Source: Parabacteroides sp. PH5-46
GTDB taxonomy: Bacteria; Bacteroidota; Bacteroidia; Bacteroidales; Tannerellaceae
NCBI RefSeq assembly: GCF_029892785.1
Contig: NZ_JARXXA010000001.1
Span: 62,001 to 126,000, forward strand
Direction of reading: 5' to 3'
Length of the DNA: 64,000 nucleotides
Shown in pieces: positions 12,472-28,066 of this stretch. The notes beneath the pieces are model-generated. The model worked only from the letters and a program-made list of their open reading frames with translations. It was not told the DNA's origin and made no database searches. The translations under genes were made by a program, and so were the position numbers. Numbering within the stretch: position 1 is the stretch's first letter; every line of letters starts with the position of its first letter.

Positions 12472-13002
12472 ATGGCACTGTTGAAAAACGATACCCTGGC
12501 ACTACGGGCGCTGGAGCCTGAAGACCTTGAATACCTCTTCCGCTGGGAGAACAATTCTGCGATATGGAGTTGCTCAGGCAGTACGATATCGCCCTATTCC
12601 CGCTATGTATTAAAAGAGTATATTGCTCAGTCTCATCTGGGTATATACGAACAAAAGCAGCTACGTCTGATCATTGAGCTAATGGAAACAAAAAAACCTA
12701 TCGGCATGATCGACTTGTACGACTTCGACCCCCATAACCGAAAAGCAGGTGTCGGCATCCTACTGGATACCGAACACCAGGGAAACGGTATGGCTACCAA
12801 TGCACTTCATTTGCTGACAGACTACGCTTTCTCTTTCCTCAAAATCCATCAATTATACGCTTACGTAGCCATAAACAACGAACCAAGTAAATCACTCTTC
12901 CTGCGATGTGGCTTCACCATATCGGGTACCCTTAGCGACTGGATCTCAACCGAAAAAGGCTACTCCGATGTACTAATCATGCAATATATTCAAAAACTAT
13001 AA
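12472..13002 (+). CDS. GNAT family N-acetyltransferase (RimJ/RimL-like)
   Basis: This 176-residue protein carries the GNAT core: LALRALEPEDLEYLFRWENN at the N-terminus, the acetyl-CoA-binding stretch GVGILLDTEHQGNGMATNAL (Q/R-x-x-G-x-A form) and YAYVAINNEPSKSLFLRCGF. This pattern is typical of acetyltransferases acting on protein N-termini, polyamines or small amines. The acceptor cannot be told from the sequence. It is the third gene of the recR-GT2 run, and its 3' end overlaps the convergent VWA gene by 13 bp. Confidence 0.9.
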   Translation: MALLKNDTLALRALEPEDLEYLFRWENNSAIWSCSGSTISPYSRYVLKEYIAQSHLGIYEQKQLRLIIELMETKKPIGMIDLYDFDPHNRKAGVGILLDTEHQGNGMATNALHLLTDYAFSFLKIHQLYAYVAINNEPSKSLFLRCGFTISGTLSDWISTEKGYSDVLIMQYIQKL

Positions 13003-14111
13003 CCCTTTATCTTAGCGAAGGACAGGATGGATTCGTTGATGGCTTTGCCTAAGTCGTCACCTGAGTTGTCTTTCTTGGATTCGTTGTCGATGTAGGCTTG
13101 GCGCTTGGCGGCTAATTCGGTTATTTGCTTCTGGATAGTAGCCCGTTCTTTTTCTTTTGCTATAACGGCTTCTTTGAGTTCGGTATTGGACTTGTTCTGA
13201 TACTCTTTAGGTAGCTGTTTTTTGTCGATGGATTCGATCACTGTTTTATCTTCGCTATACTTATCTACCAAGTCCCAAGAGGTGTTTTTGTAAACGGACT
13301 TTGATTTGCTGACTACTCGCTCGGCATAGTTTGCACTGGAGATGGATTGTGCGTTTGAGTCCTGTACTCTTTGGTTGGCTTTCTTTGATTCTCCGGCGGA
13401 ACCGTAGCTGATGTAGGTGTCGTTTAGTTTTGTGTTGCAGTGGCTTATTTCGTCATCATATGGGGTAGCGATGTACCTTACTTTGGCGTTGGAGTCTATG
13501 TTGAAGAATTTGCCTCCTCCCCGTACGGCCGCGTCTTGCCAGAAGTCGCGAATGCCTGTATCCCGGTGTCCGCAATGGATAGTATTTATGTAGATATTCT
13601 TGCCGACCGCTTGTTTGATGGCTTCTTTATAAGGGATTTTGCCTTGTTCAAAGATCTCATTTCCGGCAATATAGATCAGTTTCATGTCTGCTTCATTATC
13701 TCCCCATTCCAGGTGGCGCGTTGCTTTCTGGATAACCGTTCCGCAATACTCTTCGCTACCTCCTGCCGTGAGCACAAACAACTCCTGCGATATCAGATCC
13801 AGATCAGTGGTTAAGGGTGTGATTTGGCGAATGTAATCTCCGTCGTACCGCTTAGAGCTTCCATATTCATACAGCGCTATTTCTATTTTAGGCTCTTTGC
13901 CTTTGTACTTGAGGGTTGTAAGGGTATTTACGATGTTCCACAAGCGGGATTTGGCCTGTTCTATCAGTCCCTGCATACTACCTGAGGTATCCAGCAAAAT
14001 GGCTACCTGGATCTTTTCCTGTGCTGCTGCTTCTCTCTCTGTACGAGCTGTGTCTGCCTTTACTGCTACAGCAACAAATAATACTACACAAAACAGAATA
14101 ATTCGTTTCAT
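12990..14111 (-). CDS. secreted von Willebrand factor A domain protein
   Basis: The product from the ATG at 14111 begins MKRIILFCVVLFVAVAVKA, a clear signal peptide, so I prefer it to an in-frame ATG 57 bp upstream. A VWA domain follows, with the MIDAS metal-site motif DTSGSM and the supporting Thr and Asp loops (residues about 35-230). The C-terminal third is Lys/Glu-rich and probably coiled coil. It likely acts in the periplasm as a metal-dependent protein-binding module. There is no MoxR ATPase or other Bat gene next to it, so it is not an obvious Bat-operon member. It is divergent from the TPR histidine kinase, with a 21-bp direct repeat in the shared upstream region. Confidence 0.85.
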   Translation of the reverse strand: MKRIILFCVVLFVAVAVKADTARTEREAAAQEKIQVAILLDTSGSMQGLIEQAKSRLWNIVNTLTTLKYKGKEPKIEIALYEYGSSKRYDGDYIRQITPLTTDLDLISQELFVLTAGGSEEYCGTVIQKATRHLEWGDNEADMKLIYIAGNEIFEQGKIPYKEAIKQAVGKNIYINTIHCGHRDTGIRDFWQDAAVRGGGKFFNIDSNAKVRYIATPYDDEISHCNTKLNDTYISYGSAGESKKANQRVQDSNAQSISSANYAERVVSKSKSVYKNTSWDLVDKYSEDKTVIESIDKKQLPKEYQNKSNTELKEAVIAKEKERATIQKQITELAAKRQAYIDNESKKDNSGDDLGKAINESILSFAKIKGYSF

Positions 14112-14177
14112 ATCCCAAATAATTTTAATAGGTTTATGCCTCAAAAATAGATCGTTGAAAATTAACATTCGGACAAG

Positions 14178-14275: not shown

Positions 14276-16069
14276 ATGAAATATTGTATTTATATAATGC
14301 TCTTCCTGTTTCCCTTTATTGCTTGGGGACAGGAGTCGGTGCAGAAAAAGCAGTCGTCTAAAAGCAGTAAGAGTGCTGTGTTTGAGCTGTCCAGATCGTT
14401 GGAACAGGACTTGCCTTCGGATACGATAGCTGCTGATTATGAGAAGGTGGCGCAAGAGTATGTGGAGAAGGGAGAATATATCAAAGCAGAAGATTACTTA
14501 GTCAAAGCACGTAAGCTATATGTAAGGGATAATAACCGCCTGAAGATGGCATATATCGAACGCGAAATAGCCAGGGCACAGGAGTGGCAGGGCAATTATA
14601 CCGCTGCTATCCAAAGCTATACAAATGCTGCCGGATTATCGCAAGATACCTATCAGAAAAACCTCAACGAAAACGATGCGCTGCGGCTGAAAAACCTGAT
14701 GAATCCGGAGAAGCAATCGGTGTATATCCAACGAAACCTTGACCTTTTGAATACCATGCCTCAAAATGCAAATAAAGAAGAAAAAGTACTGGCGTATTCG
14801 CAATTGGCACAGGTAAATAAAGAGATGAAGGATAATGCTGCGGCAGTGAGTAATCTGCAATCGGCTCTGGAAGTAGCCGAGACACCCATACAGTCTCGTC
14901 AGGTACGCCGTCAGATGGCCGATGTATATGCTTCTGAAAATCAAATGGACAAGGCTATCAGTATCAATGAAAAGATACTGGAAGAAGCGGCTGAAGAACA
15001 AGATACCAAGGCACAGATAGAGCAACTGCAAACCCTGTCTACAGCCTATATCGAAACCCGGGATGTATCCAAAGGCATAGCCTCTTTGCAGCAAGCATAC
15101 GAGCTGGCGATTGAAAAAGGCCATACCCTGGATGCAAAAAACAGCCTTGAGCTGTTGGTGGCCCAATACCGGAAAGAAAACCAAAATAGGAAAGCCCTGG
15201 AGGCCTATTCCGACTTCATGGCAAAGCTGGAACCCCTGATTCGCGAAGATAGCACCCTGATAGATGAAAAGGTATTCCAAGCCCACGAAGAAAAAATAGC
15301 CCAACTAGAGAAGGAACGCGACCTGAAAGACCGCTTAATCGGTCAGCAGAAGACGCTGAATAAGCTACAAACGCTGGCTACGATCCTCTTCTTTGTGGCC
15401 TTTATCGTTGCCCTGTTTATGGTGCTGTCTATCCTCCGGAAAAACAAGAAAATAGCCCTGCAATCCCTCCGGCGCGAGATGAATCCTCACTTTATCTTCA
15501 ACAGCCTGAACAGTGTCAACCAATTTATCGCCCAAAACAATGAGTTAGAGGCCAATAAATACCTCTCTTCGTATTCCCGGCTGATGCGTAACATGATGGA
15601 AAACTCCAGCAAAGATTTCACATCCTTATCCACTGAGTTAGAGCAACTAAAAGAATACTTGGAGCTGGAACAGATGCGCTTTCACGATAAATTTACCTAC
15701 ACGATAGAGATAGACGACAGCCTGGACGCAGATGCCCTCAGGATACCCAATATGCTTATCCAACCCCAACTTGAAAACGCCATCTGGCACGGCCTCCGAT
15801 ACCGCGAAAGCAACGGCCTGCTACACCTCTCCATCCAAAAAGAAAACAAGCACCTTGCCGTAAAAATAGAAGACAACGGCATCGGCCTAAAGAAAAGCAA
15901 AGAGCTGAAAACCAAGCACCAAAAAGAACACCAATCACGCGGACTAAAAAATACCTACGAACGCATAAAACTATTAAATAGCCTCTACCACAGCAAAATA
16001 ACAATCGACATCACAGACAAAGACGGCGAAGAAACAGGCGTTATCGTACTATTCCGTTTCCCGTTATAA
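14276..16069 (+). CDS. TPR-containing LytS-type sensor histidine kinase
   Basis: The 597-residue protein has a signal peptide or N-terminal anchor (1-18), a periplasmic region of TPR-like helices (about 40-330), a coiled coil, and one membrane segment (about 362-384). A cytoplasmic His_kinase domain follows, with phosphoacceptor His405 in REMNPHFIFNSLN, and a HATPase domain with LENAIWHGLRYRE (N box) and DNGIGL (G1 box). This is the LytS/YehU class that normally signals to LytTR response regulators. No response regulator is adjacent; the nearest LytTR protein is at 19558 and lacks a receiver domain. The partner may therefore be elsewhere. Confidence 0.92.
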   Translation: MKYCIYIMLFLFPFIAWGQESVQKKQSSKSSKSAVFELSRSLEQDLPSDTIAADYEKVAQEYVEKGEYIKAEDYLVKARKLYVRDNNRLKMAYIEREIARAQEWQGNYTAAIQSYTNAAGLSQDTYQKNLNENDALRLKNLMNPEKQSVYIQRNLDLLNTMPQNANKEEKVLAYSQLAQVNKEMKDNAAAVSNLQSALEVAETPIQSRQVRRQMADVYASENQMDKAISINEKILEEAAEEQDTKAQIEQLQTLSTAYIETRDVSKGIASLQQAYELAIEKGHTLDAKNSLELLVAQYRKENQNRKALEAYSDFMAKLEPLIREDSTLIDEKVFQAHEEKIAQLEKERDLKDRLIGQQKTLNKLQTLATILFFVAFIVALFMVLSILRKNKKIALQSLRREMNPHFIFNSLNSVNQFIAQNNELEANKYLSSYSRLMRNMMENSSKDFTSLSTELEQLKEYLELEQMRFHDKFTYTIEIDDSLDADALRIPNMLIQPQLENAIWHGLRYRESNGLLHLSIQKENKHLAVKIEDNGIGLKKSKELKTKHQKEHQSRGLKNTYERIKLLNSLYHSKITIDITDKDGEETGVIVLFRFPL

Positions 16070-19513: not shown

Positions 19514-19521
19514 TATCTTTG
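19514..19521 (+). promoter_or_regulatory. -7 promoter element for the LytTR-FHA cluster
   Basis: TATCTTTG matches TAnnTTTG and is 36 bp before the LytTR gene ATG at 19558, so it probably starts the transcript that also carries the first FHA gene. Confidence 0.7.
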
Positions 19522-19557: not shown

Positions 19558-19941
19558 ATGGAGCGATATTTAATTATTAAGACAAGGGATGAGTTGCTGC
19601 GTATCAAAATTGGTCAAATCCTTTATTTCGAGGCCGATAGAAATTATACAAAACTGCTATTGTCCAACGGTATACAGTTTACGTTTGCAATTAATATAGG
19701 GAAAATAGAGGAAATACTGGAAAAGCAAGTATCTGGCAGTAGCGATATACTGATGCGTGTAGGAAAGAGCTATATAATAAATAAAAATCATATATTGCAG
19801 ATAAATATACCCAAACAGAAGCTGCTTTTGCTTACTGCAGAAGGTAAACCCAGGGAACTGACGATTTCAAAAGACCCATTGAAAATGCTGAAAGATTCGT
19901 TTGAAAAGGAAATGGGGAAAATAGAAGAGGAGGCAAACTAA
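19558..19941 (+). CDS. stand-alone LytTR DNA-binding protein
   Basis: The 127-residue protein is almost entirely a LytTR domain: ILYFEADRNYTKLLLSNG and FAINIGKIEEIL, then MRVGKSYIINKNHILQI, which corresponds to the RxHRSxxVN strand in AgrA-type domains. There is no receiver domain, so it is not a conventional response regulator. It may be controlled by protein contact, by the adjacent FHA/kinase proteins, or constitutively active. It lies 4 bp before an FHA gene, which places it in the phospho-signalling cluster and suggests it is the transcriptional output. The C-terminal KEMGKIEEEAN tail is highly charged. Confidence 0.88.
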   Translation: MERYLIIKTRDELLRIKIGQILYFEADRNYTKLLLSNGIQFTFAINIGKIEEILEKQVSGSSDILMRVGKSYIINKNHILQINIPKQKLLLLTAEGKPRELTISKDPLKMLKDSFEKEMGKIEEEAN

Positions 19942-19945
19942 ACAT

Positions 19946-20602
19946 ATGGTTGTAAAAATTGGTAAAGCTGACGATAATGATTTTGTAGTAAACGATCCGC
20001 ATGTAAGCCGTTATCATGCACGATTGACGCGCGAAAGCGACGGATGTTTGCTATTGGAGGATCTGGGCTCTACCAACGGAACGTATGTAAATGGCGGGCA
20101 AATTGTGAAGAAACGCATTGCTCCTACCGATATTGTCAAACTGGGAGATAGCTATACACTGCATGTTCCCGAAGTCCTGAAATTCAACAACGATTATAGT
20201 GCCGAGTTTGCTCTGCTGAAGAATGTGTATACCAAGTACATGGAACAGAAAGTGCGTATTCAATCGTCTAACCAATTTAAGACAAGGCTGTTTCAGTCGC
20301 TGCCTTTTGCTCTTCCCGGTATTATCGGGGTGATGATCGGTTTTTTTGGAAAAGGAAGCCCTTCTTTGCTGGGAGTCAGCCTGTTTATTACCGTATGCGC
20401 TCCTACGATTGGTATCTATTTAGGAGCGAAGCAATCGGCCAAGATCCCTCAGCAATTGCAAGACCTGGCTAATCAGTTCAAGATAGACTACGTATGCCCC
20501 AAGTGTGGCACATTCCTGGGCGAAATACCCTGGGAATCTTTGGCAAACAGAAAGCAATGCCCATTATCTTCCTGCAAAGCCAAATGGGTGAGCGAAGATT
20601 GA
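19946..20602 (+). CDS. FHA-domain membrane protein with C-terminal zinc ribbon
   Basis: The 218-residue protein opens with an FHA domain (about 1-75: VSRYHA and LGSTNGTYVNG, the phosphothreonine-binding loops). A helical linker leads to two membrane segments (about 112-128 and 133-153). A C-terminal zinc ribbon follows, with Cys pairs in CPKCG and CPLSSC. FHA domains bind phosphothreonine peptides, so this may dock phosphorylated partners, such as a substrate of the kinase at 22340, at the inner membrane. Start is the ATG four bases after the LytTR stop. The domain order resembles zinc-ribbon FHA proteins of Bacteroidota that have no assigned function. Confidence 0.88.
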   Translation: MVVKIGKADDNDFVVNDPHVSRYHARLTRESDGCLLLEDLGSTNGTYVNGGQIVKKRIAPTDIVKLGDSYTLHVPEVLKFNNDYSAEFALLKNVYTKYMEQKVRIQSSNQFKTRLFQSLPFALPGIIGVMIGFFGKGSPSLLGVSLFITVCAPTIGIYLGAKQSAKIPQQLQDLANQFKIDYVCPKCGTFLGEIPWESLANRKQCPLSSCKAKWVSED

Positions 20603-20694
20603 GTGTTTGTATTCCAAAACCGTCCTTTTGTACAGTAAACCTTATTCTATGATTAATAGAACTTGTTTTCTTCAATTCCTGTAATTTCTTTTTC

Positions 20695-20702
20695 TACTTT
20701 TG
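20695..20702 (+). promoter_or_regulatory. -7 promoter element for the acidic protein - FHA - PP2C genes
   Basis: TACTTTTG matches TAnnTTTG and is 27 bp before the ATG at 20729. It gives the second half of the signalling cluster its own transcript start. Confidence 0.7.
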
Positions 20703-20728
20703 TATCCAGAATATAAATAATTCTCATT

Positions 20729-20968
20729 ATGCAAAAAGAGGAATATACATTCGTTACGATCGATAGCGATGATACCTTGTTCCCCGATGCAGTTGTTGTG
20801 GATATAGACAACGATCAGGACTTACAGGGAATCGTTATGATTGATGAAAGTATGGAGGCTTCCGATTTTATTACCCTTTCGGATGATACTATCATGCTTT
20901 CAGACGCTGACATGATCGATACGTTCTCGAGCGATATGGATGATCTGGATATCTCGATTATGATATGA
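20729..20968 (+). CDS. very acidic small protein of unknown function
   Basis: The 79-residue product has 23 Asp/Glu residues, one Lys and no Arg or His, together with many Ser and Thr set among the acidic residues (TIDSDDT, TLSDDT, FSSDMDD). There is no signal peptide, membrane segment or known domain. Its stop overlaps the start of the next FHA gene (ATGA), and it has a consensus promoter, so I regard it as a real gene. The repeated Ser/Thr-Asp pattern makes it a possible substrate of the cluster's Ser/Thr kinase and a ligand for the two FHA proteins. That role is inference only. Confidence 0.75.
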   Translation: MQKEEYTFVTIDSDDTLFPDAVVVDIDNDQDLQGIVMIDESMEASDFITLSDDTIMLSDADMIDTFSSDMDDLDISIMI

Positions 20969-21483
20969 TATCCGTAAGGTGTCCACATTGTGACGTGGGA
21001 CTGAAGGTGGATGAAAAGAAGTTGCCTTCCGATATCACATCTTTCAAATGTCCGAAATGCAAGCGTCTTATACCCGTCTCCATGCTTTCAAAGAAAGAAG
21101 GGGAGGGGTTTTCTTCATCTGATACGGTTCTGATACAGCCGGTGAAGAAAAGCCTGGGGAAAATAACGGTTGTAGCCGATGCAAATACCCGGGAGCAACT
21201 CTTTCCGCTGTATGAAGGTATTGCTGTTATCGGACGAAAATCATCCCAACCTACTCAAGCTACAATTGCCATTGAAACGGCTGATCGCTCGATGAGTCGG
21301 GAGCATATACGGATTGAGGTAAAAAAAGATCCAAAAGGAGGATATAAACATTATCTTTCCGACAATAATAGCAAAAACCATACGTTATATAATAGTAATT
21401 ACTTAGGAAACGGGGAAGTGGTCGTCTTGAATGATAATGACGAAATAGTTATAGGCCACACCGTTCTGAGATTTAATGTTTAA
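20965..21483 (+). CDS. zinc-ribbon FHA-domain protein
   Basis: The 172-residue cytoplasmic protein begins with an MJ0042-type zinc ribbon (VRCPHCDVGLKV and FKCPKCKRLIPV), then a linker and an FHA domain (about 70-172: VIGRKSS, SMSREHIRIEV, DNNSKNHT). The Arg and Ser-Arg-x-His loop residues that bind phosphothreonine are present. It overlaps the acidic protein gene by four bases and precedes the PP2C gene by 14 bp, so the three are probably made together. It may bind phosphorylated forms of its neighbours. Confidence 0.88.
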   Translation: MISVRCPHCDVGLKVDEKKLPSDITSFKCPKCKRLIPVSMLSKKEGEGFSSSDTVLIQPVKKSLGKITVVADANTREQLFPLYEGIAVIGRKSSQPTQATIAIETADRSMSREHIRIEVKKDPKGGYKHYLSDNNSKNHTLYNSNYLGNGEVVVLNDNDEIVIGHTVLRFNV

Positions 21484-21497
21484 ACGCAGCAGCTATT

Positions 21498-22304
21498 ATG
21501 AATATAACGATCGGTAAACCCTGTGCAATCAGCGAAAAAGGTTGCAGACAAAACAATGAAGACTCTATCTACCCGCTACCGGAAGCAGTAAGCGCAAATC
21601 AGAAGCTGTTTTTGGTTTGTGACGGAGTAGGAGGAGCCGAGAAAGGGGAAATAGCCAGTGCCTTGGCCTGCGAGTATTTCCAGACGTATTTTTCTTCCAT
21701 GCTAGACAAAGATGAACCTACGCCTGAATTTATTCATAAGGCTTTGCGTTATACAGAGGCTAATTTCGACAACTATATACTACAACACCCCGAAGCAACG
21801 GGAATGGCTACTACCTTAACCATGCTACATATCGGTAAATCAGGCATTACACTGGCACATATCGGTGATAGCCGTATTTATCAGTTCCGCAACGGGAAAA
21901 TCATAAATCGTACAGAAGACCATTCACTGGTCAATTCCTTGGTAAAACTGGGACAGATCAGTCCGGAAGAAGCGGCCCATCATCCTCAGAAGAATGTGAT
22001 TACAAGAGCTATACATGGGACAAGCCAGTCTACCTCGGCTGACGTAATGTTTGTAGACGATATTCGTCCGGGCGATTACTTTTTTATGTGTACGGACGGA
22101 GTGCTCGAAAGCTTTAGTGATGAGGAGTTGAGCTCTGTTTTCAGGGAGAAGACAGCCTCAGAAGTGATCAAAGATACGATTATGGAATCCTGCAACTCCA
22201 AAACGCGGGATAATTTTTCTTTTTATATAATTCCGATTCAAAATGTGCAGGAAACAGTCGGAGTTAAGCAAAATATTCTTTCTTTCTTTTATTCTTTTGT
22301 ATAA
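21498..22304 (+). CDS. PP2C-family Ser/Thr protein phosphatase
   Basis: The 268-residue protein has the PPM/PP2C metal-binding motifs in order: NNEDSIY near residue 20, CDGVGGAEKGEIAS near 50, TGMATTLTMLHI, AHIGDSRIYQFRNG near 125, VITRAIHG, FMCTDGVLE near 200 and the final RDNFSFY. All catalytic Asp residues seem to be kept. It removes phosphate from Ser/Thr residues and would counteract the kinase encoded next. It is cytoplasmic, with a short hydrophobic end (ILSFFYSFV) that is not clearly a membrane helix. Confidence 0.93.
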   Translation: MNITIGKPCAISEKGCRQNNEDSIYPLPEAVSANQKLFLVCDGVGGAEKGEIASALACEYFQTYFSSMLDKDEPTPEFIHKALRYTEANFDNYILQHPEATGMATTLTMLHIGKSGITLAHIGDSRIYQFRNGKIINRTEDHSLVNSLVKLGQISPEEAAHHPQKNVITRAIHGTSQSTSADVMFVDDIRPGDYFFMCTDGVLESFSDEELSSVFREKTASEVIKDTIMESCNSKTRDNFSFYIIPIQNVQETVGVKQNILSFFYSFV

Positions 22305-22310
22305 ATAACG

Positions 22311-22318
22311 TATTTTTG
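22311..22318 (+). promoter_or_regulatory. -7 promoter element for the Ser/Thr kinase gene
   Basis: TATTTTTG matches TAnnTTTG, sits just after the PP2C stop and is 22 bp before the kinase ATG at 22340. The kinase may thus also be transcribed separately. Confidence 0.6.
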
Positions 22319-22339
22319 GCGTAGAATTACGCTGCGAAT

Positions 22340-24100
22340 ATGAATTTACCTATAGGGCATTACCTCCAAAACGGAAAATACCAGCTATTGAACGTTGTTG
22401 GGCAGGGTGGTTTTGGCATCACCTATAAGGGTATATTGTTTACAGAGGTAAAGGGTCCGCTGGGTAAAATCAAGACGGAAGTCCCTATCAGCATCAAAGA
22501 ATACTTCTTTAAAGATTATTGTTACAGAGTGTCTGATACGTATGAAGTAGATGTTCATTCGGAAACCGGAAAACAACTCTTTGATAAGTTTAAAGAAAAG
22601 CTGATAAAGGAAGCTAAAATTTTATCAGATGTACATTATCCCCATATTGTAAATGTGCTGGATGTTTTTGAAGAAAACAATACCGCATATATCGCCATGG
22701 AGTATATCCAGGGGCATTCCCTGAAGTATATCCTGGAAAGAGACGGTATCCTGCCCGAGCAGAAAGTATTGAAATACATCCATCAGATCGGGAAGGCCTT
22801 GCAGTTTGTTCACGAAAAAAACATATTGCATCTTGATATCAAACCGAGCAACATCCTGATTGACAAGAATGATAACGCACGTCTGATAGACTTTGGGGTG
22901 AGCAAAAGGTATGATGTAGAAGATAAGGAGACCAGTACAACGATGCTGACCCTCTCAAAGGGCTTTGCCTCTATAGAGCAGTACGACAATGAAGGAACGC
23001 AGATATTTTCTCCCTGTCCGGATGTATATTCGCTGGGTGCTACGATGTATAACCTGCTTACCGGTAAAATACCGACGGAATCTATTTTGCGGGCTACCCG
23101 CCCGTTGCAAAACCCTTCGGAACTGAACCCTGCTATCAGCCAGAAGACAGAGGAGGTTATACTAAAGGCTATGCAAATCAGTCCGTCGGATCGTTTCCAT
23201 ACGATACATGAAATGATGGAGGCGCTGGATGACCCTCCTGAAGAAGAGCAGACCCCGAGACATACCGGTTTTTCAGATGCCGGGCATCAGTCAAACAGCG
23301 ATGAGACAACTATACTGCATAATCCATCCCTTTTAACAGGAAAAGACGACGAGCAAACTTTAGTAAATACCCCTGCCATACCCAAAACTATCACAAAAAA
23401 GAAAAGTAAAAAAACGGTATGGTTTATCACCTTAATTTGTATATTTGCATTAATCGGTTCTTCTGTTGTATTGCTCATGGGGAATAATGAACCGGTAACA
23501 GATAAATTGGATTTACCGTTGGCTGACCCTGTAGACAAAGAGTTGTCGTCCACTCAAACGGATGCAGATAGTACAATCCTGAGCGAATCTACAGAACCCA
23601 GGCATCAGATATTGCCTCAACCGGTTGTTCATTCAACAGAGAATGATGTTCCGAGTAATGAGGTTGTAGATTCCCTGATGCTTACAGAAGAGGAAATAGA
23701 ACTTCAGTATGAGGCTTTGCGTTCCTCCGGGATAACAAAGATGGATAATGGAGATTATTTCGGCGCCCGGGAAGATTTTAATAAAGCCATCGAGTTAAAG
23801 CCGACGAAAGATATTATGCGCTTAAGTATCTCTAATGACGAGAAAATAGAGCAGAAAGCAATCTCGGACAGAAAGGCTTTATATGAGGAAAAAATGTCCT
23901 TTGGGCGATTTAAAATAGTTCGTAAGATATCTTCAAGGAGATATGGCGCAATTGATGATCATGGGAATGAGAAAATACCGTGTAAGTACACGAATGTAGA
24001 GGTCGTTAGCGATGGCGAACGTGCCTTTGTTCGTGAAGATAAACTATATGATATCTATAATACGGATGGGGTGTTGGTGAGAAGTGATGTAACATTTTAA
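22340..24100 (+). CDS. membrane-anchored eukaryote-like Ser/Thr protein kinase
   Basis: The 586-residue protein has an N-terminal kinase domain (about 14-295: glycine loop VGQGGFGITYKG, IKEYF for the lysine, HLDIKPSN with catalytic Asp166, DFG at Asp184). A juxtamembrane linker, one membrane helix (about 355-377) and an exported C-terminal region follow. That region has a short TPR-like helix pair and a WG-type repeat (YGAIDDHGNEKIPCKY). The catalytic loop reads HLD rather than HRD, so it is a non-RD kinase. It is the signal-receiving enzyme of the cluster: the periplasmic end could sense a ligand, the cytoplasmic domain could phosphorylate the LytTR, FHA or acidic proteins. Confidence 0.92.
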   Translation: MNLPIGHYLQNGKYQLLNVVGQGGFGITYKGILFTEVKGPLGKIKTEVPISIKEYFFKDYCYRVSDTYEVDVHSETGKQLFDKFKEKLIKEAKILSDVHYPHIVNVLDVFEENNTAYIAMEYIQGHSLKYILERDGILPEQKVLKYIHQIGKALQFVHEKNILHLDIKPSNILIDKNDNARLIDFGVSKRYDVEDKETSTTMLTLSKGFASIEQYDNEGTQIFSPCPDVYSLGATMYNLLTGKIPTESILRATRPLQNPSELNPAISQKTEEVILKAMQISPSDRFHTIHEMMEALDDPPEEEQTPRHTGFSDAGHQSNSDETTILHNPSLLTGKDDEQTLVNTPAIPKTITKKKSKKTVWFITLICIFALIGSSVVLLMGNNEPVTDKLDLPLADPVDKELSSTQTDADSTILSESTEPRHQILPQPVVHSTENDVPSNEVVDSLMLTEEEIELQYEALRSSGITKMDNGDYFGAREDFNKAIELKPTKDIMRLSISNDEKIEQKAISDRKALYEEKMSFGRFKIVRKISSRRYGAIDDHGNEKIPCKYTNVEVVSDGERAFVREDKLYDIYNTDGVLVRSDVTF

Positions 24101-24109
24101 ATGTGATGT

Positions 24110-25027
24110 ATGAATAGACTTTACTTATTGATTATATATATTGTTTTACCTTTCTGTCTAATCGCTCAGCAGCAAACAGAATATAACCGAAAAGGGGATG
24201 AAGCCATGAAACGCCTGGACTATAGTGACGCCAGATTGTTCTATGGTGAAGGGGTGCCAAATTGTGACTTATATAGTATCAATCAGCTGACTACCATCTG
24301 GCTTGCCAATGAGCAGATGCGATCCTCTATGCATAACCAAATGAGTCGTTGCTTCAACTGTTTAAGTGTGAAAGCACTTGAAAATGATTCCATAGCTATA
24401 TCAAAACTGATTATCTATTATACGGAAGGTATTGGTACACCTAAAAGTGATGAGTGGACTACTTACTGGGAGGAGCGCTTGGAAGAGTTAAGAAACCCTC
24501 CTCAGCTGAGGGAAGACTATAGCGAAACGAAGCCTTCCCGGCCATCTATGAACTATTTTGCCGGTTATACGTATTCTACACAAATGCCGATTGGTATTAC
24601 GGTTGGAGGGGTAGGTGAGCGCTTCGGCTGGTATGCTCGTTTTAAGACAAATGCCTCTTTTCAGAGTTTTGATGAAGAATTTTCCGGAGACTCTCCGAAA
24701 GGGGCTTCTGCCATAGGTGTAAGTGACAAGAAAAGTGCCTATGCTGTAACGGCAGGTATGCTGTACAAATGTAATTCACGGCTCTATCTTTCGGCGGGTG
24801 CAGGATATGGTAAACGTGATCTGTTATGGCAATTTGCTAAAGTAGATGATAACGGTGATGCTACAAACGAAACGAAATGGTATAAAAAGACAGATGACTC
24901 CTACAATGGTGTAGCTGTTGATCTAGACTGTATGTTCCGCATTGGTGTGGTTTATCTAAGCGCCGGATGCAGTACCATTAACTTTAAATATGTCGATTTG
25001 AATGCCGGTATCGGGGTGTTTTTTTAA
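24110..25027 (+). CDS. exported protein with TPR-like N-terminus and beta-strand C-terminus
   Basis: The 305-residue protein has a signal peptide (about 1-19, ending LIAQ). Residues about 25-130 are Sel1/TPR-like helices (NRKGDEAMKRLDYSDARLFYGEG, of which RLDYSDA is the most TPR-like part). Residues about 150-305 show alternating hydrophobic strands (YFAGYTYST, LYLSAGAGYGKRD, FRIGVVYLSAG) and a terminal Phe-Phe, as in small outer-membrane beta-barrels. It starts 9 bp after the kinase gene and 10 bp before the kelch lipoprotein gene. It may be the envelope partner sensed by the kinase's exported domain. No named family recognised. Confidence 0.78.
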   Translation: MNRLYLLIIYIVLPFCLIAQQQTEYNRKGDEAMKRLDYSDARLFYGEGVPNCDLYSINQLTTIWLANEQMRSSMHNQMSRCFNCLSVKALENDSIAISKLIIYYTEGIGTPKSDEWTTYWEERLEELRNPPQLREDYSETKPSRPSMNYFAGYTYSTQMPIGITVGGVGERFGWYARFKTNASFQSFDEEFSGDSPKGASAIGVSDKKSAYAVTAGMLYKCNSRLYLSAGAGYGKRDLLWQFAKVDDNGDATNETKWYKKTDDSYNGVAVDLDCMFRIGVVYLSAGCSTINFKYVDLNAGIGVFF

Positions 25028-25037
25028 TTGAGGAAGT

Positions 25038-27182
25038 ATGAAATATTTATATACAATTATCATATCATTTGTCAGTGTGTGTTTGTTTTATGGCTGCCTG
25101 GATGATCCGGAGATGCCGGATCTGATAAACGCAGGAGCCCCTGAAATCACACTTGATACGGTTTTTGACATCAAAGCTAATTCAGTACGAATTGTAGCCA
25201 GTATCACCAAGCAAAATGCCTCACCCGTGAAGCAAAGCGGTTTTTCCTGGAAAGATGCGGCAGGTACTTCGCAAAAAATATCCGTTACCGGAAAAAAAGA
25301 AAATAGTATTATCAAGCTGGATACTGTTATTACGGGCCTTGAAAAAGCAACCCAATACACCTTTGTAGCCTTTGCAGAAAATGAGATTGGCGAGACACTA
25401 AGTCAGTCGATAACGAAAGAAACCGGGAACGGCTTAGGTACGCTTCATACATTTAAGCCTGATTCGATAAAGGGTACTTCAGTCTATGCCGGTGGCAAGA
25501 TATTGGACAAGGGTGAAGGTAAAATAGAGGCATGTGGCGTATATGTGTCTAAAAAGCAGGATATGTCTGTCATAGATTCTGTATACCTATCACCATCCGT
25601 CGCTGATTCGTTCTTCTTTAAAGTGGGTGGATTGGAGCCGAATACAACATATTATATGCAAGGGTATGCGAAGAGTAATTTCGGAACTTTTACAGGTGAT
25701 GTTAAAACGCTGACTACTATAAGTGGAAAGCCTTTGATGGGAATGTTTGAACTTACAGGTACGGGCTTTGTAGATGCCCAATTTGTGCTGGAGGTTCTGG
25801 ATGAGGGTGATAGTCCTGTTACTGCCTATGGTATATGTTGGTCTGAAACTCCTGGTTCTGAAATTAGCGGAGATACAATAGTCATCGGCTCCGGAACAGG
25901 TTCATTCACGGTACAGTTGAAAAACCTTAAACCTTATACCTCCTACTATGCTCGCGCCTATGCCACTAATAGCTTTGGAACGAAATACAGCGATGAGGTC
26001 AGTTTTAAGACAGAAAGTAACATGCCGGAGATTGAGACGCTGGAGGTTTCCTCCATGTCTAGAGGTAGTGCCCTGATTAGAGGCAATATCAAAAAGATCG
26101 GTATGGGTAAGATTGATCTCTTGGGCTTCTGTTATTCAACGACTGAAATGCCTACTGTTATGAATAAAACAGCTCCGGCTCCTGTTGATCAAGCGGAAGG
26201 ACTCTTCAGTGTCTGGATGTCCGGATTGAAAGGAGGAACTACCTATTATGCTCGGGCATACCTCAAGAATACAAGCGGTTTACTCGCTTATGGCGAGCAG
26301 GTAACGTTTACTACGCCTTCAATGTTCACCCAAATGGCAACCTTTACAGGAGGAGATGTTCGTAAGCCTAATTCAAGTGCCACATTCTCAATAGGGAATG
26401 TCGGTTATTTGTTGGGAGGTGACTTAGGCTCGGTTTATACCAATGAGTTGATGGCTTTTAATACTTCTAACAGATGGGATAAACTAGCCTCGATTCCGGA
26501 CACAGAACGGAAATGGCAAACGGCTGTAAATGTAAATGATGTAGCTTATGTATTCGGCGGTATTGACAGGAGTGGCAATCTGACAAACAAATTACATCGT
26601 TATATACCCAGTTACAATAGTTGGGAAAGTGTTTCAGCTTCAGGACCAGATCCGTTGCGTTCTGCCAGAGGTGCATCTATAGATAATGTCGCTTACTTTA
26701 TAGGAGGCGCACGCGATTCGATATTGAATGAAGTGTGGAGTTTTGATGCTGCAGCTGTCTCTTGGACCCGAAAAGCCAACTTCCCCGTCAAACAGTATGG
26801 AGGTATAGCTGTCGTTATTGATGGAGTGATATATGCCGGCCTTGGTTTGGATAATATGTCGGGAACATCCTCCCATAAGCGACTTTGGTCATCGTCTGAT
26901 AATGGAAATAGCTGGCAGGAACTGCGATCTTTATCGGCAGGTGGCCTTGCAAGGGGAGCCGTAGTATATGAAAAGTCAATTTATGTAGTAGACAATACCG
27001 GGCGTCTGTGGCAGTATCTTGTAGAAGAAAACATCTGGAAGCAAAAGTCAATCCTGCCATCTACCAATCGGGGGGATAAGCAGCATTGTATGTTCTACCT
27101 GGATGATAAGATATATATCGGGCTTGGCATATATGATAATACGCTGATAGAATACGAACCGGCTTGGGATAACGACTTATGA
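25038..27182 (+). CDS. surface lipoprotein with Fn3-like repeats and a kelch-like propeller
   Basis: The 714-residue protein has a lipoprotein signal (lipobox FYGC, Cys20). The first 430 residues contain about four Fn3-like repeats with a recurring T-x-Y-x-x-A-x-A-x-N-S/T-x-G pattern (TQYTFVAFAENEIG, TTYYMQGYAKSNFG, TSYYARAYATNSFG, TTYYARAYLKNTSG). The C-terminal part (about 440-714) has kelch-type blades (VGYLLGGDLG, VAYVFGGIDRSG, VAYFIGGARD). Such Bacteroidales lipoproteins are usually surface-exposed and may bind glycans or proteins. It overlaps the following cysE-like gene by four bases, so it ends the signalling cluster but may share a transcript with cysE. Confidence 0.88.
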   Translation: MKYLYTIIISFVSVCLFYGCLDDPEMPDLINAGAPEITLDTVFDIKANSVRIVASITKQNASPVKQSGFSWKDAAGTSQKISVTGKKENSIIKLDTVITGLEKATQYTFVAFAENEIGETLSQSITKETGNGLGTLHTFKPDSIKGTSVYAGGKILDKGEGKIEACGVYVSKKQDMSVIDSVYLSPSVADSFFFKVGGLEPNTTYYMQGYAKSNFGTFTGDVKTLTTISGKPLMGMFELTGTGFVDAQFVLEVLDEGDSPVTAYGICWSETPGSEISGDTIVIGSGTGSFTVQLKNLKPYTSYYARAYATNSFGTKYSDEVSFKTESNMPEIETLEVSSMSRGSALIRGNIKKIGMGKIDLLGFCYSTTEMPTVMNKTAPAPVDQAEGLFSVWMSGLKGGTTYYARAYLKNTSGLLAYGEQVTFTTPSMFTQMATFTGGDVRKPNSSATFSIGNVGYLLGGDLGSVYTNELMAFNTSNRWDKLASIPDTERKWQTAVNVNDVAYVFGGIDRSGNLTNKLHRYIPSYNSWESVSASGPDPLRSARGASIDNVAYFIGGARDSILNEVWSFDAAAVSWTRKANFPVKQYGGIAVVIDGVIYAGLGLDNMSGTSSHKRLWSSSDNGNSWQELRSLSAGGLARGAVVYEKSIYVVDNTGRLWQYLVEENIWKQKSILPSTNRGDKQHCMFYLDDKIYIGLGIYDNTLIEYEPAWDNDL

Positions 27183-28066
27183 ACCGATCGGAGGTATTAG
27201 AGCAGATCAGAAAGAATGTAGAGCGGCTGTCGCTAGCTGATGTACCGGAATATCAGTATATCCCGCTACATCAGAAGCCATCGCCCTCTGTTCCTATGAT
27301 CCGGAGGTTTATGCAACTTTTGAAAATGGTTGTTTTTCCGGGCTTTTTCGGTACGGAACAGGAAGCCCATCCGGACTCTATCCAATATTATACAGGTGTT
27401 TATTTGGAGCAGATCTATGATTTGCTGCAAGGGCAGGTGTATAACGGGCTTTGTTTTGAGTCGGAAAGCTGTTGCGATACCCAGGATAAATCATCCGATA
27501 TAGCTGTTGCATTTATCAATGAGATACCTCAGTTAAAGCATTTATTATCAACGGATGTTAAAGCGATATTAGACGGAGATCCGGCTGCCAATAGTGTTAG
27601 TGAAGTGATTTTTTGTTATCCGGCTGTTCAGGCCATCCTATGTCAGCGAACGGCTCATATATTGTTTAAGCTGGGGGTTCCGGTATTGCCACGTATTATA
27701 ACGGAAATGGCTCATTCGGAAACCGGTATCGATATCCATCCGGGGGCTCAGATAGGAGAGTATTTCAGTATAGATCATGGAACAGGAGTTGTTATCGGAC
27801 AAACCGCTATTATCGGAAATCACGTTCGTCTATACCAGGGAGTTACCCTTGGTGCCAAGAGCTTTACCTATGATGATGAGGGACTACCAATAGATGTTCC
27901 GCGCCACCCTATCATTGAAGATTATGTAACGATTTATTCCAATACTTCCGTACTAGGCCGGATCACGATCGGACAGGGTTCTGTTATCGGTGGAAACATC
28001 TGGCTTACACACGACGTTCCTCCTAATTCTAAGATTCTGCAAACCCGCGCTATTGAAGAAAAATAG
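27179..28066 (+). CDS. cysE: serine O-acetyltransferase (EpsC/CysE-like)
   Basis: The 295-residue enzyme has an alpha-helical N-terminal half and a left-handed beta-helix of hexapeptide repeats. It contains HSETGIDIHPGAQIG, FSIDHGTGVVIG and LYQGVTLGAKSF, which carry the catalytic His and the acetyl-CoA site. It makes O-acetylserine from serine and acetyl-CoA, the first step of cysteine synthesis. It is longer at the N-terminus than E. coli CysE, matching the Bacteroidota/plant-like SrpH-EpsC type. The ATGA overlap with the lipoprotein gene is the only sign linking it to the signalling cluster; its own role is housekeeping. Confidence 0.92.
   Translation: MNRSEVLEQIRKNVERLSLADVPEYQYIPLHQKPSPSVPMIRRFMQLLKMVVFPGFFGTEQEAHPDSIQYYTGVYLEQIYDLLQGQVYNGLCFESESCCDTQDKSSDIAVAFINEIPQLKHLLSTDVKAILDGDPAANSVSEVIFCYPAVQAILCQRTAHILFKLGVPVLPRIITEMAHSETGIDIHPGAQIGEYFSIDHGTGVVIGQTAIIGNHVRLYQGVTLGAKSFTYDDEGLPIDVPRHPIIEDYVTIYSNTSVLGRITIGQGSVIGGNIWLTHDVPPNSKILQTRAIEEK

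Follow-up and report, generated by a model that had tools for sequence, protein, structure and literature searches.

The LytTR Regulatory Systems (LRS), such as HdrRM and BrsRM, consist of a receiver-less regulator and a membrane partner that inhibits it, with repeats at the promoter of the regulator (PMC6193735). In the archaellum repression of Sulfolobus, the ArnA-ArnB system controls gene expression via phosphorylation-dependent binding (PMC6509490). Here, an eight-gene cluster is analyzed that occupies positions 19558-27182 of a 64,000-nucleotide stretch of Parabacteroides sp. PH5-46 (contig NZ_JARXXA010000001.1, positions 62,001 to 126,000; hereafter the window). The cluster encodes, in order, a LytTR regulator, an FHA protein (FHA1), a small acidic protein, a second FHA protein (FHA2), a PP2C phosphatase, a Ser/Thr kinase, an exported protein and an Fn3-kelch lipoprotein. 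Together, the conservation of this gene unit, of a repeat array within it and of a set of threonine motifs suggests a phosphothreonine (pThr) signalling line that runs from the envelope to the DNA with built-in positive feedback, a reading that in our judgement stands an even chance of being correct.

The best-supported analogy is with the LRS, of which the cluster would be a variant with an FHA membrane partner and an operator on another operon. As in the LRS, the receiver-less lytTR gene is immediately followed by a membrane-protein gene, here FHA1, and a promoter is preceded at a short distance by direct repeats spaced by about two helical turns; the LRS pattern of repeats of about 9-11 bp with 11-13-bp spacing near a promoter (PMC6193735) agrees with the 21-bp period seen here. 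In contrast to the LRS, the membrane partner carries an FHA domain together with a zinc ribbon, the repeats precede the second operon of the cluster and not lytTR, and kinase, phosphatase and envelope genes are part of the cluster. The 'LRS-like' operons of Bacteroides have a different membrane protein and a different gene order, according to the same source (PMC6193735). Because the repeats are almost always absent from the lytTR promoter, the cluster is described here as working like an LRS and is not filed as a member.

The cluster shares with ArnA-ArnB a zinc finger and FHA protein, Ser/Thr kinase and phosphatase, and ArnA is among the PDB matches of FHA1; unlike the cluster, ArnA-ArnB has a vWA partner and, in the accessible text, no LytTR protein, membrane FHA protein or envelope genes (PMC6509490). 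The kinase-kinase-phosphatase (KKP) systems likewise combine Ser/Thr kinase, PP2C and FHA domain, but they contain two kinases, one of them with a cold-shock domain, fuse the FHA domain to a kinase and are prophage-borne, and LytTR is not mentioned in the accessible part of their description (PMC11341870). With one kinase and no cold-shock domain, the cluster was rejected as a KKP system. Assignment to the PknB/PASTA kinases with Stp1 was also rejected (kinase 188 bits against a cut-off of 450, PP2C 194.2 against 230, no PASTA domain). In GarA and OdhI, a phosphorylated Thr precedes the FHA domain, and both proteins inhibit metabolic enzymes. FHA2, with its invariant Thr54 in the linker before the FHA domain, resembles them in layout only: GarA and OdhI match FHA1 and not FHA2, the PDB matches of which are CHK2 FHA domains only. 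Finally, the PpkA-PppA-Fha module of type VI secretion comprises a kinase, a PP2C phosphatase and an FHA reader. An earlier note on this DNA, made by a model from the sequence alone, had confined the likeness to these three elements without a secretion gene. The NCBIfam VI_FHA scores of the two FHA proteins (28.1 and 18.9) are far below the cut-off of 120.25, no secretion gene turned up in a scan that covered the cluster proteins but not the rest of the genome, and the module was rejected as an identity for the cluster. Nor was a named system of the same composition found in the open-access papers searched; the note had known of none either.

Results

Conservation of the gene unit

Relatives of the locus were fetched by FHA1, and the best 80 of 107, almost all of which carry the label Parabacteroides, Tannerella or Tannerellaceae, formed a first locus set. 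After removal of 18 loci that were too short for an eight-gene test, all eight genes were found in the same order and on the same strand in 58 of the 62 that remained. A second, overlapping set of 51 loci, four of them too short, contains the full cluster in 41 of 47. The arrangement thus goes far beyond chance, and the genes are neither scattered nor confined to this strain, the outcome that the earlier note had named as refuting. The flanking genes are variable (2 of 50 loci have YgiQ upstream; serine acetyltransferase comes after the lipoprotein gene in 30 of 53), and the conserved unit, which belongs to Tannerellaceae, a family of bacteria of gut and mouth, is therefore bounded by the eight genes. 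In the window, the serine acetyltransferase gene (27179-28066) overlaps the stop codon of the lipoprotein gene.

The tightest linkage is that of lytTR and FHA1, which are adjacent in 80 of 80 loci with a median gap of 4 bp, and LytTR identity between loci usually exceeds that of the other seven cluster proteins. FHA1 matches are present in 107 of 123 family genomes, including 58 of the 61 of high quality. Two of the three high-quality genomes without FHA1 (G352 and G413) also have no kinase; in the third (G345), the contig breaks off at FHA2-PP2C-kinase, on the side where lytTR-FHA1 is expected. An order-wide draw gave an FHA1 match at E ≤1e-8 in 23 of 295 genomes, five of which are close (at least 55% identity): four Tannerellaceae and one genome of another family (G280).

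Some loci depart from the full cluster. Four (L126, which is the same contig as L056, and L134, L030 and L066) have lytTR-FHA1-acidic-FHA2-PP2C and no kinase, L161 has no match to the acidic gene, and L060 is rearranged. A kinase ortholog is encoded elsewhere in five of the six searched genomes with a kinase-less cluster (G298, G351, G370, G280 and G315), accompanied by the lipoprotein gene in 5/5 and by the exported-protein gene in 4/5. In L234, L235 and L236, from three split genomes, the serine acetyltransferase gene is still linked to the kinase half.

Two transcription units and a probable operator array

Gene spacing and promoter motifs indicate two transcription units and not one, lytTR-FHA1 and acidic gene to lipoprotein, a division that the earlier note had missed. 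FHA1 and the acidic gene are separated by the only long gap (median 133 bp, n = 75), the medians of the six others being −4 to 42 bp. In the window this long gap (20603-20728) contains a promoter, so that the acidic ORF (open reading frame), itself conserved between loci, has a promoter of its own. Ahead of the first unit, 77 of 78 loci have TAnnTTTG no more than 75 bp upstream of lytTR. In the window, a TTTG that fits the −33 element of Bacteroidales lies 20 bp upstream of the lytTR −7 box.

Upstream of the second promoter, the same gap carries three half-sites with a 21-bp period (R1-R3, Table 1). About 11 bp separate the end of R3 from the expected −33 position of the second unit, placed by the promoter consensus of Bacteroidales, and guanines of the array recur at −17, +4 and +25 relative to R2. 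The operator set comprised 74 of 81 sequences (the window and the 80 loci), the rest being without an alignable acidic-gene or FHA1 end. Self-similarity over the 74 loci peaks at distances of −21, −22 and +21 (6.3, 6.2 and 6.8 of 13 identities) against a background mean of 3.95 (standard deviation 0.97 over 38 distances), and under leave-one-out scoring the array is above the 99th percentile of shuffles in 74/74. When the half-site is chosen by matrix, R2 lies 68-70 bp from the −7 box in 64 loci and 80-81 bp in nine, and in one locus the box was not found; a seed-chosen half-site gave 62, 8, 3 and 1. The change of 11 bp in nine of the 74 loci corresponds to a shift of one helical turn. Upstream of lytTR, only one of 78 regions scores above shuffles, and autoregulation of lytTR was rejected on this ground. 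Since the geometry of the array is that expected for a LytTR operator, LytTR probably drives the acidic-to-lipoprotein operon, kinase included, through it.

It is conceivable that a different LytTR protein binds the array and that the cluster LytTR acts on other targets, given 4 to 18 LytTR domains per genome in six genomes, the cluster one included (16 in G000, 6 in G335, 4 in G338, 14 in G205, 18 in G361 and 9 in G326). This seems very improbable to us, because the array is found directly past the lytTR-FHA1 pair in every scored locus and R1-R2 has no second match at ≤2 mismatches in this genome. The single match, which has 0 mismatches, is to be read beside one match in the reversed control. 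A 2-mismatch search of 14 genomes was noisy (34 matches versus 26 in the reversed control, 12 of these in G325), and the argument for further sites relies on the stricter pattern described below.

Split loci were scanned by matrix, the strict pattern having given no operators there. In G280, an acidic gene and an operator-like site stand beside the unlinked FHA2-PP2C-kinase operon, with a −7 box again at 69 bp and a score barely above shuffles (4.9 versus a maximum of 4.3 in 40 shuffles). Pattern hits before an ECF sigma factor gene (L163-L171) seemingly reflect a terminator hairpin and were set aside; this conserved terminator-like hairpin has a GTAC-rich loop and resembles the operator pattern.

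Phosphosite-like threonines

The acidic protein contains 1.96 F[IV][TS][LIMV]xD motifs per ortholog (n = 76), in comparison with 0.017 after shuffling. A second motif, scored as [DE]xT[VIL] with x optional, is present in the juxtamembrane region of 59 of 67 kinase orthologs (16.7 expected) and in the linker of 57 of 75 FHA2 orthologs (20.0 expected). Within this otherwise variable linker, Thr54 is kept in all 74 orthologs that have a residue at the position (one gap). In contrast, no excess of the second motif is seen in the kinase domain (22/70, 47.4 expected), the outer kinase region (35/65, 38.8), PP2C (42/73, 46.3) or the FHA domain of FHA2 (7/74, 18.9). The conserved Thr residues of the acidic protein, the kinase juxtamembrane region and the FHA2 linker thus appear phosphosite-like.

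Operator-like sites before surface-protein genes

In 28 genomes, of which 27 are Tannerellaceae and the other is G280, a stricter operator pattern matched 45 times, against 15 for the reversed control. Thirteen are cluster sites, 21 precede genes whose products start with MNKKFSTL or a similar sequence (MNKKF genes) and 11, six of which were not fetched, lie elsewhere. Elsewhere in the order, 147 genomes gave 56 matches (roughly 0.38 per genome; 52 for the reversed control), and against this background the 11 sites elsewhere are at chance level, whereas the 21 MNKKF matches are an excess. In eight family genomes of the 28, the cluster site is too diverged for the stricter pattern or there is no match; with diverged sites missed, the pattern undercounts.

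At all 21 MNKKF sites, which occur in part of Parabacteroides, the −7 box is 91 or 92 bp past R2; this adds two turns to the usual cluster spacing and keeps the helical register of the cluster array. The promoter faces away from the gene at 18 of them and towards it at three; four further cassettes face towards the gene (L172 and L179) or away from it (L173 and L181). In 13 of 23 MNKKF upstream regions scanned, all away-facing, the cassette is surrounded by exact inverted repeats of 11 bp or more; none was seen in the other 10, among which are all five that face the gene. This pattern fits, but does not prove, invertible promoters. The cluster regulator probably also controls the MNKKF surface proteins in this part of the genus.

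The large MNKKFSTL-type surface proteins (L172-L179, L181-L194, L196, L197 and L200) are candidate phase-variable coat proteins. Those tested (1 + 3) received no Pfam or NCBIfam name, and the one compared with the PDB had no match. Their likely counterpart is a phase-variable glycoprotein family of P. distasonis, reportedly described by Fletcher et al. in 2007. Among nine genomes without FHA1, a site occurs in three, two of these resembling MNKKF-type promoters (G343, 82% complete, and G345); G352 and G413 have no site. Two results speak against the surface-gene reading. In Tannerella, the cluster site is found in 8/8 genomes and surface-gene sites in none, as the two extra 3-mismatch matches equal the two in the reversed control; and the window's own genome has no MNKKF-type site at ≤2 mismatches.

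Gene products and neighbouring genes

The coordinates of the cluster genes, promoter boxes and half-sites are collected in Table 1.

Table 1. Genes, −7 boxes and operator half-sites of the cluster, in window coordinates.
Feature	Position	Strand	Description
−7 box of lytTR-FHA1 unit	19514..19521	+	TATCTTTG
lytTR	19558..19941	+	127 amino acids, DNA-binding, no receiver; Pfam LytTR 40 bits (cut-off 22.6)
FHA1	19946..20602	+	N-terminal FHA, two membrane segments, C-terminal zinc ribbon
Operator half-site R1	20606..20618	+	TTTGTATTCCAAA
Operator half-site R2	20627..20639	+	TTTGTACAGTAAA; exactly 21 bp past R1
Operator half-site R3	20648..20659	+	TATGATTAATAG; exactly 21 bp past R2
−7 box of second unit	20695..20702	+	TACTTTTG; 69 bp from R2
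Acidic gene	20729..20968	+	79 amino acids; F[IV][TS][LIMV]xD motifs at residues 8 and 47
FHA2	20965..21483	+	zinc ribbon at the N-terminus, then a linker that holds the invariant Thr54, FHA domain at the C-terminus
PP2C phosphatase	21498..22304	+	Pfam PP2C_2 62.8 bits (cut-off 24)
Membrane Ser/Thr kinase	22340..24100	+	kinase domain followed by juxtamembrane Thr motifs, a single membrane segment and, past the membrane, a TPR/WG region
Exported protein	24110..25027	+	helical TPR/Sel1-like domain and C-terminal beta domain; N-terminal signal segment
Fn3-kelch lipoprotein	25038..27182	+	kelch 107.8 bits (cut-off 50), fn3 43.9 bits (cut-off 25)

The earlier note's description of eight co-directional genes and of their products stands in nearly every part. 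The ORF list of the window places all eight on the + strand. LytTR is the only above-cut-off Pfam domain of the regulator, in agreement with the proposed output protein without a receiver. Both FHA proteins score well above the Pfam cut-off of 20.7 bits (68.1 and 46.5), and the pair of FHA-zinc ribbon proteins, one in the membrane, is likewise borne out. Hydropathy places the start of the FHA1 membrane segments at residues 115 and 139, and its zinc ribbon is read from four cysteines that are invariant across a 12-protein alignment; the zinc ribbon of FHA2 falls below the Pfam cut-off (27.9 versus 30.3) and above that of NCBIfam (22.4 versus 20.9). The small acidic protein is indeed Ser/Thr-rich (8 Ser and 6 Thr), with 23 Asp/Glu, 1 Lys/Arg and a pI of about 4.05, and is predicted to be a phospho-scaffold. 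The phosphatase and the transmembrane kinase are both recovered, the latter with Pkinase at 138.1 bits (cut-off 31.7), WG repeat at 28.4 (25.6), a weak TPR match and a single membrane segment starting at residue 358 by hydropathy. Residues that we take to be the catalytic and phosphate-binding motifs of these families are conserved in kinase, PP2C and FHA orthologs.

The description of the seventh product as an exported TPR/beta-strand protein needed correction. Export is upheld by the signal segment, and the predicted structure (mean pLDDT 90.8, pTM 0.53) is helical to about residue 128, followed by a run of about 10 strands that reaches the C-terminus. In this model, the beta domain resembles an outer-membrane barrel; the PDB matches are weak and limited to Sel1/TPR structures. 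The Fn3-like and kelch-like domains of the lipoprotein are both found by Pfam. A signal segment is seen by hydropathy at its N-terminus, and LDDPE directly after the Cys residue resembles what we take to be a surface-export signal. A crude lipobox pattern is present in 52 of 63 orthologs, 37 of which have at least two acidic residues within the next six.

Elsewhere in the window, a LytS-like TPR-histidine kinase with a His_kinase match (PF06580) is encoded at 14276-16069 (+), and a vWA-like protein, judged by eye, at 12990-14168 on the opposite strand. Outside the window, the same genome encodes a third FHA protein, a lone zinc ribbon-FHA protein (L162:9159-9686, −), and no kinase or phosphatase is evident among the ORFs beside its gene.

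A wider Bacteroidota module

FHA1, FHA2, PP2C and the kinase belong to a wider Bacteroidota module. In other members of the phylum, an FHA1 homolog is accompanied by a protein here called X, a zinc-FHA2 protein, PP2C, kinases and often a caspase-like peptidase; many X proteins carry DxDxDG repeats as well as [DE]xT motifs close to the N-terminal end. A search across the phylum gave hits in 19 of the 395 genomes covered, including G000 and G105, and the literature search found no description of FHA-X-FHA-PP2C-kinase clusters with a caspase-like protein. LytTR stands beside FHA1 in the sister modules L013, L060, L077 and L080, and weakly in L017 and L269. In L077, an operator-like site lies between FHA1 and the kinase gene (9.6 versus a shuffle maximum of 1.0).

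Caspase domains were identified in L060 and L014 (Peptidase_C14, 64 and 81.5 bits) and, by eye, in L020, L270 and L273. They would suit an origin of the cluster as the domesticated relative of a conflict or programmed-death system, in which an ancestral FHA1-X-FHA2-PP2C-kinase set with its peptidase lost both peptidase and X in Tannerellaceae and turned to envelope regulation. Such an origin is rather unlikely: the Tannerellaceae cluster, with median gaps of at most 133 bp, has no room for a peptidase gene, PADLOC matches are limited to kinase and PP2C models, and the acidic protein was rejected as a homolog of X (hhalign probability 0.6%, with scrambled columns scoring higher).

Discussion

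In the proposed signalling line, the lipoprotein and the barrel-like exported protein would report the state of the envelope to the outer part of the kinase. The kinase may then autophosphorylate its juxtamembrane threonines and phosphorylate the acidic protein and the FHA2 linker, the regions in which the motifs are conserved, and FHA1 and FHA2 would read the resulting pThr sites. By analogy with the LRS, and given the tight lytTR-FHA1 linkage, membrane-bound FHA1 could hold or release the receiver-less LytTR according to its pThr occupancy. Free LytTR would bind the three conserved, 21-bp-phased half-sites and switch the operon on, and PP2C would reset the state. In part of Parabacteroides, the same regulator would probably also govern the surface-protein family.

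Several observations weigh against this line. The 74 operator loci are relatives and not independent observations. The matrix scan found no operator before the relocated kinase in G298, G370, G351 and G315, which means that feedback on the kinase is not universal, and none above shuffles near isolated lytTR-FHA1 pairs. Such pairs occur at L117, L075 and L012, and also at L146 (a shorter contig, with 5.8 kb past FHA1). A search for a kinase ortholog in G374, which keeps five cluster genes, found none. In the wider module, LytTR is not beside FHA1 in L014-L016, L018, L020, L078 and L079 or in five of six stretches from the phylum-wide search. Finally, LytTR (26/80, 27.5 expected) and FHA1 (17/80, 28.6 expected) show no excess of the Thr motif.

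The last of these results, the division into two transcription units and the occurrence of lytTR-FHA1 without the rest nearby would also be expected if two devices lay side by side, with LytTR controlling the kinase operon and the kinase, PP2C and FHA proteins acting post-translationally on the envelope and sending no signal back. We regard this arrangement as unlikely, though it is the least so of the alternatives, because lytTR is always found next to FHA1, a protein of the phosphopeptide-reader type, and such constancy would be difficult to account for if LytTR received no pThr input. For the envelope-to-DNA line, a further claim can be made only tentatively, as it is somewhat doubtful as a whole: that the cluster is the first bacterial pThr line from envelope to LytTR with feedback through a phased operator, and that in Parabacteroides it gates phase-variable surface proteins, so that random promoter inversion and a phosphothreonine signal would meet at one promoter cassette.

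To our knowledge, the output has been identified for few Ser/Thr kinases of Bacteroidota, and none of the open-access papers searched mentions both Parabacteroides and serine threonine kinase. The output of this cluster is readable: the array, conserved and fixed in geometry, could serve directly as a reporter, and the conserved threonines point to candidate sites. If the Parabacteroides sites are true targets, a kinase pathway would stand above the phase-variable surface coat of gut commensals, and this control would be directly testable.

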